Shown here in pieces: positions 26,384 through 64,000 of a DNA stretch of 64,000 bases. Origin of the DNA: a virus; IMG/VR virus record IMGVR_UViG_3300032163_000005, positions 30,024-94,023 of that record; one strand, given 5' to 3'. The position numbers and the translations under genes are program-made. A model generated the notes under the pieces. The model was not told the origin of the DNA, ran no database searches, and was given only the letters and a program-made list of their open reading frames with translations. Positions within the stretch are counted from its first letter, which is position 1; every line of letters starts with the position of its first letter.

Positions 26384-26453
26384 GTGACGGTCCTCCGCGT
26401 GAACGAGAGAGGGATATCACCCGACGCGAGGATCGGGCTAGTGATGTCTAGCC
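26384..26453 (-). promoter_or_regulatory. Structured leader with two hairpins
   Basis: On the minus strand, directly after the repeat-like element, GGCTAG and CTAGCC form one hairpin (26436-26453) and CCCGA and TCGGG a second (26422-26439, overlapping its last bases), then a GGAGG ribosome site precedes the ATG at 26383. Together with the repeat hairpin this makes a compact series of stems between two structural genes. Confidence 0.55.
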
Positions 26454-26487
26454 GAGAGATGAAGCCCTCTCACTAGCTTTGATCTAC
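26454..26487 (-). repeat. Solitary CRISPR-repeat-like element far from the array
   Basis: Bases 26454-26479 match 26 consecutive bases of the array repeat exactly, including the whole GAGAG/CTCTC hairpin; after one inserted T the match continues with GATC, a C-to-T change, and AC. Only the three bases next to the spacer in array copies (GTT on plus) differ (GCC). It is in the same sense as the array when read on the minus strand and overlaps the stop codon of the gene ending at 26484. It is not flanked by a second repeat. Confidence 0.9.
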
Positions 26488-52628: not shown

Positions 52629-53627
52629 TCACCCCGACACGAAGCGCGAGCTAACAGGATGCGATTGGCTTGCTTCGAATGCCTCGATGGCATCCTGGAT
52701 GTATCGATAGGGTCCGCCGCCCACGTCACGAACAGTACATCCCGCCGCGTTCGTGTGACCTCCACCGCCGTACTCTTTGCAAAAGGCTTTGCAGTCGAAG
52801 GCGCCTCTCGAGCGAAGGGAGAGTTGGAGATCTTGGTGCCCATCCCACTGATGATCGAACGTCACCACGAGGTCCGCTTGATCGCCAAGTACATCAGCGG
52901 CGTCCGTAGCAAACTCGTTGTGGAAGCCACCCGGCATCGTCCACACCTTGGTCTTCTGAGCTGACTCGAAGAAGCGCGCTTGCTTGACCACGTGATTCAC
53001 ACGATCGAGATGACGTTCTCGAATGCCCATCCCAAGCTTGATCGCATTCCGCCATTCCTTGGCATCATTGAACCGGGGCTCTTTCAACTCCCAGTGGTTC
53101 CACGGCATGAACTGAAGCGCTGCACTGAGATTGCAGGCAGCGGTCCATGTTGGGTGATGGCGTTGCCACGTGTCGCGAATGCCGACGAGCAATGCAAACC
53201 ACTTGGCGTTCTCTTCCGCCTTGAATTCCTCCGAACAAGGTTCGCCCGAAGAATTGGCGTAGAGCGGTTTCCACACGTGCTCGAAGGCGAGCACAGCACC
53301 GCTGACACCAGGATCATCGAATTCGTCCGCGAAGACTCCTCGCTCTCCGAACCGACCGATGAGATCTTTGACGCCCTTGTGATGGTCAAGAACGATGGCG
53401 CCAGCATCGATGAATTCTTGTGCGCGATCCTCAGGAGGAACGATGTCGCAGAAGAGCATGTTGGGTCCAGCGGGCAGAGCTTTGAGCTCCCTTGACTGGT
53501 AGCCCATGAATGCAAGTGCAGCATCAGGGAGGATGTCTTTGAGAAGGATCGCGCTCGCGACGCCATCGGGGCAGTGTGCGTGCGTGATGATGTGCTTGAC
53601 GTTGTTGATCGCTTCGATGGGAATCAT
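52629..53627 (-). CDS. DHH-family phosphoesterase
   Basis: 332 aa. DHH domain motifs: ITHAHCPDGVASA (about 14-26, Asp and His for Mn binding), FCDIVPP, and VLDHHKG (DHH about 81-83); a C-terminal DHHA1-type motif GGGGHTNAAG near residue 290. Such enzymes degrade short oligonucleotides, pAp or cyclic dinucleotide products. In a phage it could recycle nucleotides or remove defence second messengers; which is unknown. Confidence 0.85.
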   Translation of the reverse strand: MIPIEAINNVKHIITHAHCPDGVASAILLKDILPDAALAFMGYQSRELKALPAGPNMLFCDIVPPEDRAQEFIDAGAIVLDHHKGVKDLIGRFGERGVFADEFDDPGVSGAVLAFEHVWKPLYANSSGEPCSEEFKAEENAKWFALLVGIRDTWQRHHPTWTAACNLSAALQFMPWNHWELKEPRFNDAKEWRNAIKLGMGIRERHLDRVNHVVKQARFFESAQKTKVWTMPGGFHNEFATDAADVLGDQADLVVTFDHQWDGHQDLQLSLRSRGAFDCKAFCKEYGGGGHTNAAGCTVRDVGGGPYRYIQDAIEAFEASQSHPVSSRFVSG

Positions 53628-56210: not shown

Positions 56211-56879
56211 TCACCGCACCTTGCAGCCAAGAAGCGTCGCAATGAGGTCACCCGTCTTCTGACCTGATGTCTCGGCTTTGTCAGCAAGCGTCTTTTTCAC
56301 TGCGTCCCTGAGCCTCACATCGTTGAAGCTAAGACTCAGGGTAACCGAGCTCCCGAACGTCGTTGTGGTGTCTGTGGGGAGCGGGGGAATGGCATCCACG
56401 AGCCTCAGTAGGTTGTCTGTCTCGGATTGCTCGAACCCCATGAACGATGTCTCTTCCAACGTGAGGGGTTTCTCAGTGTGAAGACTCGCGAGAAGCTGCC
56501 CGAGTAGGCGCGCGTCAAATTCACCGCCCACGTTGTTAAGCATCACATTGAGCTTCTTGGCTTCGCGATCCTCAATGTCGAGAACGATGCATGGAATCGC
56601 AGGAACCTGGATCCCCATCTCAACGCAGAGCTCTGTGATGGCCTTCACACGTTGGTGACCGCCGATGATGCCCATTCCCTTCTTCTGCACGCAGATGGGA
56701 TCAAGGAATCCGAATGTCTTGATCGACATCTTGAGCGCGTCGAAATCCTTCTTCGAGATGGTCCTTGGGTTGTAAGCCTGAGGATTGATCTTCCGAGGAA
56801 GGACGAGAACCGGCGTGTGAATCACGATGGCCTCGTTGGTAGGAAGTGCTTCGAGCTTCACGACAGAACGACGGGGCAT
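56211..56879 (-). CDS. ParB-like nuclease domain protein
   Basis: 222 aa. N-terminal ParB core: INPQAYNPRTISKKDFDALK, then MGIIGGHQRVKAI (GGHQR about 73-77), with an acidic middle. A helical C-terminal part follows. Such proteins beside phage terminase genes may regulate packaging or bind DNA near the pac region; here only position supports that. It lies 20 nt from the terminase gene. Confidence 0.8.
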   Translation of the reverse strand: MPRRSVVKLEALPTNEAIVIHTPVLVLPRKINPQAYNPRTISKKDFDALKMSIKTFGFLDPICVQKKGMGIIGGHQRVKAITELCVEMGIQVPAIPCIVLDIEDREAKKLNVMLNNVGGEFDARLLGQLLASLHTEKPLTLEETSFMGFEQSETDNLLRLVDAIPPLPTDTTTTFGSSVTLSLSFNDVRLRDAVKKTLADKAETSGQKTGDLIATLLGCKVR

Positions 56880-59382: not shown

Positions 59383-59862
59383 GTTGAGAGATGAAGCTCT
59401 CTCACTAGCTTGATCCACCGGTGTTCCTGTCGAGGGGACCAACTACTTCCACTACTCGTTGAGAGATGAAGCCCTCTCACTAGCTTGATCCACGGATCAC
59501 CCACTCGGGATCGTCCGCGTCGAGCGCAAGTTGAGAGATGAAGCCCTCTCACTAGCTTGATCCACGAAACCCAGTGCGAGGCGAACGTGTGGCGCAGATC
59601 GTGGTTGAGAGATGAAGCCCTCTCACTAGCTTGATCCACCTTCTCGGGCTCGAGCCCCATCGCTTCGGCCTCTTCGCGTTGTTGAGAGATGAAGCCCTCT
59701 CACTAGCTTGATCCACAGATGGATGCTCGCCGCGTTGGTACACGCAATTGCTTGTTGAGAGATGAAGCCCTCTCACTAGCTTGATCCACCCGATTCGCGG
59801 AGTGTCCATCTCTCACCCTCTTGAACGTTGAGAGATGAAGCCCTCTCACTAGCTTGATCCAC
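59383..59862 (-). CRISPR. CRISPR array, 7 repeats and 6 spacers (type V-like)
   Basis: 36-bp repeats start at 59383, 59458, 59530, 59604, 59681, 59754 and 59827. Six are identical; the first (59383) has one C-to-T change, marking the trailer end. Spacers are 39, 36, 38, 41, 37 and 37 bp. Read on the minus strand the repeat begins GTGGATCAAGC and ends in a GAGAG/CTCTC hairpin plus AAC next to the spacer, the layout of crRNAs that need no tracrRNA (Cas12a, Cas12i, CasPhi). The first repeat is only 19 bp from the cas12 stop, so array and gene are probably one transcript. Confidence 0.96.
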
Positions 59863-59881: not shown

Positions 59882-61375
59882 TCATTCCGCAGCATTCAAC
59901 TCCGGTTCGCGAGAGGTGGCAACCATCCGAAGATGATCCCCCGTTCCGATTCCATCAGCATTCTTTTTCTCTTTTCGTTTTGATACTTTGCGCGTGCGAG
60001 CACGAGGGGGGTTTCCATCACCAATCCACCGCTCGCTTTGATAGCGGAGAACCCGTGCGGCATTTTCATCCTGATGATGCTCGGCCCCGCACTCACATTT
60101 CCAGCGAAGCGCTGGACCAACCTTTTCTGCACGAATCAACCCGCACGATGAACAAGTCATTGTAGTGAATGCACTTGGAAGCCAATCAACACGAGCTGCC
60201 CCAAACCGTTGCAGGATGACGGTTTGGAGAATGTGTATGGCCGCACTCGAGCGCCATCGTTCAAGTGATGCTGTGTCGCCTTCTCCGACCCAAGCTTGCA
60301 TGGGCATGTCTTCAAGTGCGACGTATCGATATTTTCGCGCAAGTGCATCTGCGAATCGTTGGTAGGCATCAAGTCGGCGTCGAATAGCTCGATCTCGGAC
60401 ACCTGCTTCGATGTCTTCGAGATGGCGATCACGTTCCCGCCACCACAGTGCACCTAGATCTTGAGTCGTGAGCGCGATCCGTCGCATGCGCTCTTTGTCC
60501 TTCCAACGAAGCGCATGCTGCGCACCGGGAAGCTGTGCTTCCGATACATGTCGTTTGGCTTCGTCAAAATTGACATCTCGTATGCTCCGGATCGAATCGG
60601 AATATTGGAACGCCCGGATCGTATCGATGTGGAGAGACCCGACATCAACTACACCGTTCTCTTCTCCGTCGTAGGTCGCCACGAGCATGCCGAGCTCACC
60701 ATTTCTTCGCCAACCGACGTCTACACCGACAATGCCCAACCCAATGTCCTTTTTCCTATCAGGCTCAAATTCGATGGTGACCAACGCTTCCCAACGAAAT
60801 CGATGTCCCGAGCGCGTTCGTTGAACAGCAACTTGTTTGACAACAGCGCCATCCGGGAAATCCCGATGAAGTTTGATGGGCCATGTGATCGTTTGGCCAG
60901 CCGCCAGCGCGCCAACATGGATGGTGAGCTCGGCGTGTCGTCTGGCATTGAGGCTTGTGAGAGAAATACGTTTGCTCGTCGTCCAATCCAACGCTGGAAA
61001 TTGAGCTCGCGAATGAATCTCTCCGCCAATGGATCCTGTGCCATCCCAATGCTGCATCTTGATTGGATCAAGACGACTCGCTTTGCTCGCTGAGAGCATT
61101 GCAGCCTCAATAAGCCAATAAGTACCCGCGTCGAGTAGATGACCCCTACGTCGTCGTGCCCCCCGGATCCTCTCATTCTGAGTTTGATGAGTGAACGCCA
61201 TGACATGAGATGCATCATCCTTGCTCTCAAGGAGTGTGCGAAAATCTCGTTTGGCCGCGTTGTAAATCCGTCGCAACTCTTCACGATAGAGCCACGCTTG
61301 CCCGAGCAATTGAAGGGCCCGGTCCATTTCTTTGGGAGCCCGGCATCCGAATTTGTAGACCCTATTTTCAATCAT
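59882..61375 (-). CDS. cas12: Compact Cas12-like (type V) CRISPR effector
   Basis: About 497 aa from ATG at 61375, with AAGAAGGA upstream; a longer frame to 61615 runs through the neighbouring 61434 gene. N-terminus VYKFGCRAPKEMDRALQLLG resembles Cas12/TnpB recognition lobes. RuvC-I Asp219 (GIVGVDVG), RuvC-II Glu355 (YVALEDMP), zinc finger Cys408/411 and Cys427/429, RuvC-III Asp436 (HHQDENAARV). All catalytic residues are present, so DNA cleavage is expected. It is near the smallest end of Cas12 families, and no HNH or Cas1/2 is present. The abutting array separates it from a free transposon TnpB; subtype is not settled. Confidence 0.9.
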   Translation of the reverse strand: MIENRVYKFGCRAPKEMDRALQLLGQAWLYREELRRIYNAAKRDFRTLLESKDDASHVMAFTHQTQNERIRGARRRRGHLLDAGTYWLIEAAMLSASKASRLDPIKMQHWDGTGSIGGEIHSRAQFPALDWTTSKRISLTSLNARRHAELTIHVGALAAGQTITWPIKLHRDFPDGAVVKQVAVQRTRSGHRFRWEALVTIEFEPDRKKDIGLGIVGVDVGWRRNGELGMLVATYDGEENGVVDVGSLHIDTIRAFQYSDSIRSIRDVNFDEAKRHVSEAQLPGAQHALRWKDKERMRRIALTTQDLGALWWRERDRHLEDIEAGVRDRAIRRRLDAYQRFADALARKYRYVALEDMPMQAWVGEGDTASLERWRSSAAIHILQTVILQRFGAARVDWLPSAFTTMTCSSCGLIRAEKVGPALRWKCECGAEHHQDENAARVLRYQSERWIGDGNPPRARTRKVSKRKEKKNADGIGTGDHLRMVATSREPELNAAE

Positions 61376-62474: not shown

Positions 62475-62600
62475 GACCATCACCTCTCGCTGCCTCTCGT
62501 CTTCGGCTTCTCGCCGCCCGAGAGGGCTTCGTGGCGCGGGGGCAACCCGCTTCGTTCTCATCTCTCCCACACCACTATGATAGCTCACCCTAGGTTTCTG

Positions 62601-63074
62601 TCAAGGTTTCTTTTGAGGAGACTTGCGGTCGGTCTTCCGACGCTTTTGGTTTCTGTCTGCGCCGTGCTTGGCGTACCAGCGTGCGAACACCGCAGCCCTG
62701 GCGCACTTGTGCTGGCAATAAATAGGGATCTTCGCAGTTGGTCCGCAGCGCTCCACCGGACGCCCGCATGAAGGACACGGTGGACGTGTACGCGCTCGAA
62801 GGACGCGCTGCTCGAGACGCCGTGCGCGTGTGGCCGCGTTCTCCTTCGCACGCCACGCGGGGGCCGACCTCACGCGCTGGTAGTAGTCGTGCTGCCGCTC
62901 GAGTCGACGCACGCCCGATCGGATCGCCGTGAAGAGCTCTTGCGCCCGCCACGTGATGGCGAGCTCTTCGAAGTCGTCGAGAATGTCTCCCCTCAGATTG
63001 ATCCACGCCATCACGCTGCCTTTTGGAACGCCGCACTCTGGACTCAAATCGAGCTCTGCGAGAACCGATTTCAC
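62601..63074 (-). CDS. Zinc-finger protein, hypothetical
   Basis: 157 aa from a GTG at 63074 overlapping the upstream TGA (GTGA); ATG at 63011 is an alternative. N-terminal alpha/beta (ECGVPKGSVMAWINLRGDI), helical Arg-rich middle, then CPSCGRPVERC and YCQHKC as a zinc site and a Lys-rich end. The finger is similar in pattern to small zinc-ribbon phage proteins. Confidence 0.62.
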   Translation of the reverse strand: MKSVLAELDLSPECGVPKGSVMAWINLRGDILDDFEELAITWRAQELFTAIRSGVRRLERQHDYYQRVRSAPAWRAKENAATRARRLEQRVLRARTRPPCPSCGRPVERCGPTAKIPIYCQHKCARAAVFARWYAKHGADRNQKRRKTDRKSPQKKP

Positions 63075-63358: not shown

Positions 63359-63414
63359 CGTCATCTCTCCCACGCATCTATTATGGCCATGGGAGAGTTT
63401 CTGTCAAGGATTGT

Positions 63415-64000
63415 TTAGCTAGCGACTTGAAGCGCTTGCGCTCGTCGCGCGTCCCGTGTGGCTTGTTTGCCGTACGCATGCCCGCCGAGTACCAGGTCAA
63501 TTGGCGTGCCATATTTGGCGAATCCAAGAAGCTCGCACATCGTCTCGATGGCCGTTCCCCCGAGGCGTCGTGCCCACACGCCCCATGTCATCTTAGAACC
63601 TTCCGTGTGGCCTTCGTGCCACTTGATCATGGCTTCGAGTAACGTCGGAATCTTCTCCAAGTCCTTGATCGTGTAGCCCTCCTTTTTGAGCCAGTCGCGA
63701 TCAACGTCCGTGAGCTTGCGAGATTTCGCAGCCAAGAAGAGCTCGAACACGAGACCTTGGACGAGCACCGCTTGATGAATCATCGCATCGATGTCTCCTG
63801 CCCAACGCGCGGGCTGCGAGGCTACGTGGCGAGCTTCCGAATGGATGACCGACCCCATGGCCGTCGCGCCGATGTAGATGCACATCGAGGCGACCATACT
63901 ATCCTTACCCGTGTAGGAGTGAGCCACCACGAGCCGACTCGAGAGACGAGCGCCCTCAAGCTCCATGGGCTCATAGATTTGGCACTCCTCGCGTGGGTGC
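63415..64000 (-). CDS. Hypothetical protein, possibly 5'-truncated by the window edge
   Basis: The frame is open to the right edge; the first ATG is at 63966 (183 aa), but no good ribosome site precedes it. Helical with conserved-looking SRLVVAHSYTGKDS and WLKKEGYTIKDLEKIPTLLE segments, and a Gly/Ala-rich end. Gap 63359-63414 contains no gene. No family recognised. Confidence 0.6.
   Translation of the reverse strand, partial: HPREECQIYEPMELEGARLSSRLVVAHSYTGKDSMVASMCIYIGATAMGSVIHSEARHVASQPARWAGDIDAMIHQAVLVQGLVFELFLAAKSRKLTDVDRDWLKKEGYTIKDLEKIPTLLEAMIKWHEGHTEGSKMTWGVWARRLGGTAIETMCELLGFAKYGTPIDLVLGGHAYGKQATRDARRAQALQVAS

Follow-up and report, generated by a model that had tools for sequence, protein, structure and literature searches.

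A phage-borne type V-M mini-CRISPR with a spacer on box II of tyrosine recombinases

Results and Discussion

The window analyzed here, a stretch of 64,000 nucleotides that corresponds to bases 30024-94023 of a linear 94,023-base IMG/VR virus record, contains a short CRISPR array and an adjoining gene that we assign from their sequences to a phage-borne type V-M mini-CRISPR system without acquisition genes. One of the six spacers, spacer 3, carries on the minus strand the codons of box II of the tyrosine recombinases, and we propose that the phage probably uses its Cas12m-family effector as an RNA-guided roadblock on the integrase genes of competing elements. The features discussed are collected in Table 1.

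Table 1. Features of the CRISPR locus and associated elements, in window coordinates
Feature	Position	Strand	Remarks
Solitary CRISPR repeat copy	26451..26487	(-)	33 kb from array; 20-nt core identical
CRISPR array	59383..59862	(-)	7 repeats of 36 nt and 6 spacers of 36-41 nt
Spacer 1	59419..59457	(-)	no convincing target match
Spacer 2	59494..59529	(-)	weak portal-gene match, rejected
Spacer 3	59566..59603	(-)	38 nt; guide CACGATCTGCGCCACAC...; codons HDLRHTFASHWV of tyrosine recombinase box II
First 17 guide nt of spacer 3	59587..59603	(-)	HDLRH and two bases of T
Spacer 4	59640..59680	(-)	no convincing target match
Spacer 5	59717..59753	(-)	no convincing target match
Spacer 6	59790..59826	(-)	leader-proximal; no convincing target match
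Cas12m-family (type V-M) effector	59882..61375	(-)	497 aa from ATG 61375; open frame to 61615
Sigma-70-like promoter TTGACA-16-TATCAT	62577..62604	(-)	effector's strand, upstream; consensus match only
Second promoter of same type, TTGACA-16-CATAAT	63380..63407	(-)	consensus match only; pattern count not above chance

Spacer 3 and box II

Spacer 3 lies exactly where the initial annotation had placed it, between the repeats at 59530-59565 and 59604-59639, and is the fourth of the six spacers in transcription order (minus strand, with the leader at the effector side). Its reverse complement, CACGATCTGCGCCACACGTTCGCCTCGCACTGGGTTTC, translates in the frame that starts at the first base into HDLRHTFASHWV, and since the crRNA is read from the minus strand the spacer carries the coding sequence of box II; the recombinase box that had been recognized earlier by translation of this strand is thus borne out. 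With all frames, all six spacers and the base composition of the spacers taken into account, chance alone would yield 3.6e-5 occurrences of a permissive box-II core and 3e-15 of the exact 12-mer.

At an E cutoff of 10, blastn matched spacer 3 to 191 records of phages and 256 of plasmids. Among the phage matches listed, those with an annotation are mostly tyrosine integrases; the plasmid matches listed are, where annotated, again integrases for the most part, next to some that name an AAA ATPase or a hypothetical gene. The low match counts of the other five spacers are a natural control for this result, spacers 1, 2, 4, 5 and 6 together giving just 4 phage and 17 plasmid records, none of them convincing, and the codon-degenerate patterns of spacers 1, 2 and 6 had zero matches in IMG/VR. 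A match of spacer 2 to a Streptomyces phage portal gene (28/33 nt) was rejected, the two translations reading APDADEPQQVM and ALDADDPEWVI and the site having no TTN flank. Self-targeting by spacers 1-6 was likewise rejected, the best off-array site for the first 17 nt having 3/17 mismatches and no TTN flank.

We also searched with a codon-degenerate pattern of the full motif, HDLRHTFA[S/T]HWV, in which Phe was also admitted for Leu. It matched 20 contigs, 1 viral and 19 bacterial, and all 20 matches lie inside long open frames, nearly all of which go on with the integrase pattern GGDxFKLQKILGHxSxxMTxRYAHL. Best protospacers outside integrase genes or in other frames, the outcome that the initial annotation had named as speaking against it, were not what we found. 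The closest full-length homologue of spacer 3 is mismatched at 5/38 bases; no full-length protospacer with three or fewer mismatches was present in the 379 genomes searched from the phylum to which a Kofleriaceae genome belongs, nor in the genomes of six integrase loci or in virus L004.

Ten of the 19 bacterial contigs are from Myxococcota or 'delta(proteo)bacteria' and three from Bdellovibrionales or Oligoflexia, and one further contig (L021) belongs to the same phylum as the Kofleriaceae genome. The predominance of Myxococcota/Bdellovibrionota-type genomes among the full 12-residue matches is a real though modest lead to the host, as the initial annotation had suggested, and not proof.

Flank and breadth of the 17-nt guide

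In Cas12m2 the guide forms a heteroduplex of 17 bp, and the PAM is 5' TTN (PMC10442227). The triplet 5' of the protospacer is in our case the codon preceding HDLRH, and among the 20 full-motif homologues this codon is TTN in 19 and specifies Phe (TTC/TTT) in 18, so that the box-II flank appears compatible with the PAM of Cas12m2; as the TTN is imposed by the conserved Phe codon, however, it does not amount to an independent PAM determination. The expectation that a spacer search would turn up integrases with a consistent flank was realized for the in-frame integrase matches and for the flank, with no exact protospacer to accompany them.

An exact match to TTY followed by the first 17 guide nucleotides of spacer 3 is present in 100 IMG/VR contigs, where by a rough estimate fewer than one such site is expected by chance. 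All 100 sites read FHDLRHT in frame, in agreement with the H-x-L-R-H of box II, and lie in open frames no shorter than 100 residues; 56 of them have a simple LGH-type pattern within the next 24 residues, and the proteins of these contigs form 72 clusters at 90% identity and 39 at 50%. With at most one mismatch, 12 sites were present in 237 genomes of the Kofleriaceae genome's phylum (reversed pattern, 0); ten of these are in frame as FHDLRHT, and the other two (L137, L140) are not integrase-like. Given the 100 in-frame contigs and the sites from this phylum, the guide lies in a block that ranks among the most conserved of the family. The position of the spacer cannot be called selected, because a spacer from any other part of such a gene would have escaped notice. 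Moreover, the strong conservation means that the 17-nt part of the guide fits the integrases of many phages and is therefore a poor host marker.

The array and its repeats

Six of the seven repeats are identical, and the terminal repeat at 59383 is degenerate, differing by one change. Since this degenerate repeat lies at the left end (trailer) and the effector gene to the right, its end 19 nt from the array, we take the array to be transcribed on the minus strand. As transcribed, the repeat reads GTGGATCAAGCTAGTGAGAGGGCTTCATCTCTCAAC, and positions -22..-17 can form a stem with -8..-3, accompanied by G(-23), A(-2) and C(-1), whereas no such stem was found on the plus strand. This is the geometry of the Cas12m2 crRNA (PMC10442227), and the repeat fold and the degenerate last repeat together point clearly to a crRNA made from the minus strand. 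Arrays of such repeats accompany the relatives of the effector, immediately downstream in several cases, and these repeats have a similar stem close to the 3' end, followed by AC, in a register one base further out. An identical copy of the repeat was found nowhere else in IMG/VR, and a second repeat look-alike, at L024:13886, was rejected as falling within chance expectation.

The solitary repeat copy sits in a 100-nt intergenic gap between two minus-strand head-region genes, and its would-be guide, TAGACATCACTAGCCCG, has no phage-genome target with fewer than four mismatches. This copy might serve as a single repeat unit of the Racr kind, or mark a place where Cas12m processes an mRNA. If the plus strand is read at 26451, it might be an anti-repeat; type V-M systems characteristically need no tracrRNA beside the crRNA.

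The effector

The effector matches the PADLOC Cas12u1 model (E 6e-39) and the solved Cas12m 23vw (E 1.6e-21, about 2e-21), the matches to TnpB models being far weaker, and its homology to V-U1/Cas12m spans the WED, RuvC and zinc finger regions. It is also homologous to a plasmid protein of Allomeiothermus (Meiothermus) silvanus, which we take to be MsCas12m. V-U1 and V-M are both names for the Cas12u1/Cas12m family. Close relatives of the effector, or of the terminase, were not found in IMG/VR.

When aligned with eight intact homologues and a broken one (L035), the effector keeps the RuvC D-E-D, the zinc finger CxxC/CxC and the HR pair, and this pair of the WED domain, conserved in 10/10 aligned proteins, would correspond to His269/Arg270 of Cas12m2. 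The REC2 region, measured between two flanking anchors, has 54 residues, as compared with 94-199 in the eight intact relatives, and is hence at least 40 residues smaller than in any of these. The part that is missing would correspond to the REC2 coiled coil, an insertion in REC1 for recognition of the PAM-distal duplex. In Cas12m2 this coiled coil comprises roughly residues 53-120, as taken from the segment omitted in the intermediate-state model, and TnpB, which is without REC2, recognizes only 12 bp (PMC10442227). With its apparently shortened REC2, and by analogy with the 12 bp of TnpB, the effector would be predicted to form a shorter duplex. The residues that align by eye with the PAM-contacting Gln195/Gln197 of Cas12m2 are seemingly replaced (IGGEIH). 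A single-sequence structure prediction gave a pLDDT of 34 and no usable model. Two Cas12m homologues (L027 and L030) from genomes of the phylum of the Kofleriaceae MAG have adjacent CRISPR arrays, and the RuvC site of the first is N-D-D, not D-E-D.

The phage

Genes for baseplate wedge, sheath, portal and terminase identify a contractile-tailed phage. Neither a tyrosine or serine integrase nor Cas1 was detected in the 94-kb record, and the locus has no adaptation genes; as the record is linear and possibly incomplete, an integrase of the phage's own could lie beyond its ends. Two similar sigma-70-like promoters, each matching at 11/12 positions, are found at 62577-62613 and 63380-63416, and share a downstream 41-nt block that is 76% identical; the two regions are apparently duplicated control regions. 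The window further encodes a DHH phosphoesterase-like protein (52629-53627; PHROG 4771, 4e-28) and, adjoining the large terminase gene, a protein with a ParB N-terminal domain (56211-56879). Rfam and tRNA scans gave no matches.

Proposed mechanism and alternatives

In the mechanism that we favor, a minus-strand transcript would cover first the effector gene and then the array, Cas12m itself would probably process the pre-crRNA by cuts inside the repeats, and effector and crRNAs would be made during infection. The spacer-3 crRNA, having the sequence of the box II coding strand, would pair with the template strand of the integrase gene, the conserved Phe codon (TTC/TTT) ahead of box II supplying the TTN PAM. 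Cas12m bound there would act as a roadblock that silences the gene and does not cut it. The integrase so silenced would belong to a competitor, whether a temperate phage, a satellite or an integrative element, incoming or resident, presumably to the benefit of the phage. Since the paired bases lie in the codons of the most conserved box, a single guide may be effective against many integrases. As to the earlier suggestion that the array targets an integrating element, spacer 3 does match integrases in frame; since the other five spacers match nothing convincing, the suggestion is supported for one spacer and cannot be extended to the array as a whole.

It is also conceivable that the targets are not incoming rivals but prophages, satellites and genomic islands that already sit in the host chromosome, the guide acting on their integrases to block excision or induction on infection. 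The full box-II motif is indeed present in bacterial contigs, the phage is without a detected integrase, and host-targeting spacers have been reported in huge-phage arrays (PMC7162821), but no exact target was found, and we consider this explanation a possible though somewhat unlikely one.

A more far-reaching version of the roadblock mechanism is that a REC2-less Cas12m, a short duplex and a guide placed on the universal integrase box with its Phe-codon PAM would allow one crRNA of an integrase-free phage to silence the integrases of many unrelated temperate phages, satellites and islands, in a family-wide and not a strain-specific manner. This we put forward as speculative, and more doubtful than not.

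Whether the effector would silence or cut bears on a second alternative, a nuclease system that cleaves or nicks integrase DNA. The RuvC triad D-E-D and the zinc finger are intact, such a triad could in principle cut, and the D-E-D clades 3 and 4 have been suspected of doing so (PMC10442227). Against this, the tested Cas12m orthologues, those with D-E-D included, do not cleave dsDNA, and MsCas12m binds DNA without cutting, cleaving neither DNA nor RNA (PMC11013384). In view of the tested D-E-D orthologues cleavage by the phage effector is possible but less likely, and we regard a nuclease system as unlikely.

The array might, in addition, be passive cargo, with a spacer that was acquired from any integrase in a bacterial V-M array and is now functionless for the phage. 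This would suit a phage without acquisition genes and five spacers without targets, and the spotting of spacer 3 was biased towards famous motifs; yet six of seven repeats are identical, the effector frame is intact with all key residues, and promoter-like sites stand upstream of it, which renders this explanation quite improbable. Lastly, although the sequence is short and its translation was read by eye, the chance that the box-II reading is a coincidence is negligible, the permissive motif being expected only 3.6e-5 times, and the concentration of the nucleotide matches of spacer 3 in integrase genes contradicts it.

In principle, a guide on the most conserved stretch of the integrases could shut down many rival elements together. 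If this is true, phage CRISPR guides could be broad-spectrum by combining a codon block conserved at the protein level with a silencing-only effector, and the testable prediction is that one 17-nt guide acts against many integrases, the effector being a Cas12m variant of very compact size. In the minimal case the locus is one more phage-borne V-M system with one recognizable target gene. In a partial literature search we found no paper on a phage guide placed on an integrase box.

Comparison with known systems

Type V-M systems are known on plasmids and in some prophages (PMC11656645). Huge phages have been described that carry V-U variants and spacers directed against other phages (PMC7162821), and landfill phages that encode Cas12m-like proteins (PMC12607003). 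With the type V-M systems of MmCas12m2, GoCas12m and MsCas12m the phage locus shares a single compact Cas12, 36-nt repeats of equal stem/pseudoknot geometry, the lack of acquisition genes and an array downstream of the effector (PMC10442227, PMC11013384); the 5' flank of the box-II sites is T-rich as well, as the Phe codon imposes. It differs from them in the size of the effector, just 497 aa with a 54-residue REC2 region as against 94-199 residues in the eight intact relatives, in having D-E-D and not H-D-D, and, when aligned by eye, at the PAM-glutamine positions.

The virus Rctr197k (KX853510) is similar in that a phage genome carries a Cas12m-like gene with an array ~33 nt behind it in matching orientation. 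The gene in question (KX853510.1 110803-114219; L026) is annotated as similar to transposase, yet its product is a Cas12m-like effector, and the array that follows it immediately has 36-nt repeats. The two effectors are only 27% identical, however, and Rctr197k has ~19 repeats of other sequence and a 121-residue REC2 region; no box-II motif was found in its spacers.

Short arrays without Cas1/2 are also a feature of the compact type V systems of huge and landfill phages (V-U variants, Cas12j), the spacers of which are directed against other phages or hosts (PMC7162821, PMC12607003), whereas here the record is of 94 kb and the guide lies on a universal integrase box. Inter-virus conflict is also the setting of viral mini-CRISPR arrays and solitary repeat units (Racr), and a solitary repeat is present here too, but those elements act through or against host Cas proteins (PMC11656645) while the phage described here has its own effector. 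Phage-borne V-M systems are already known, and it is the shortened REC2 region together with the position of the guide that could make this one a variant.
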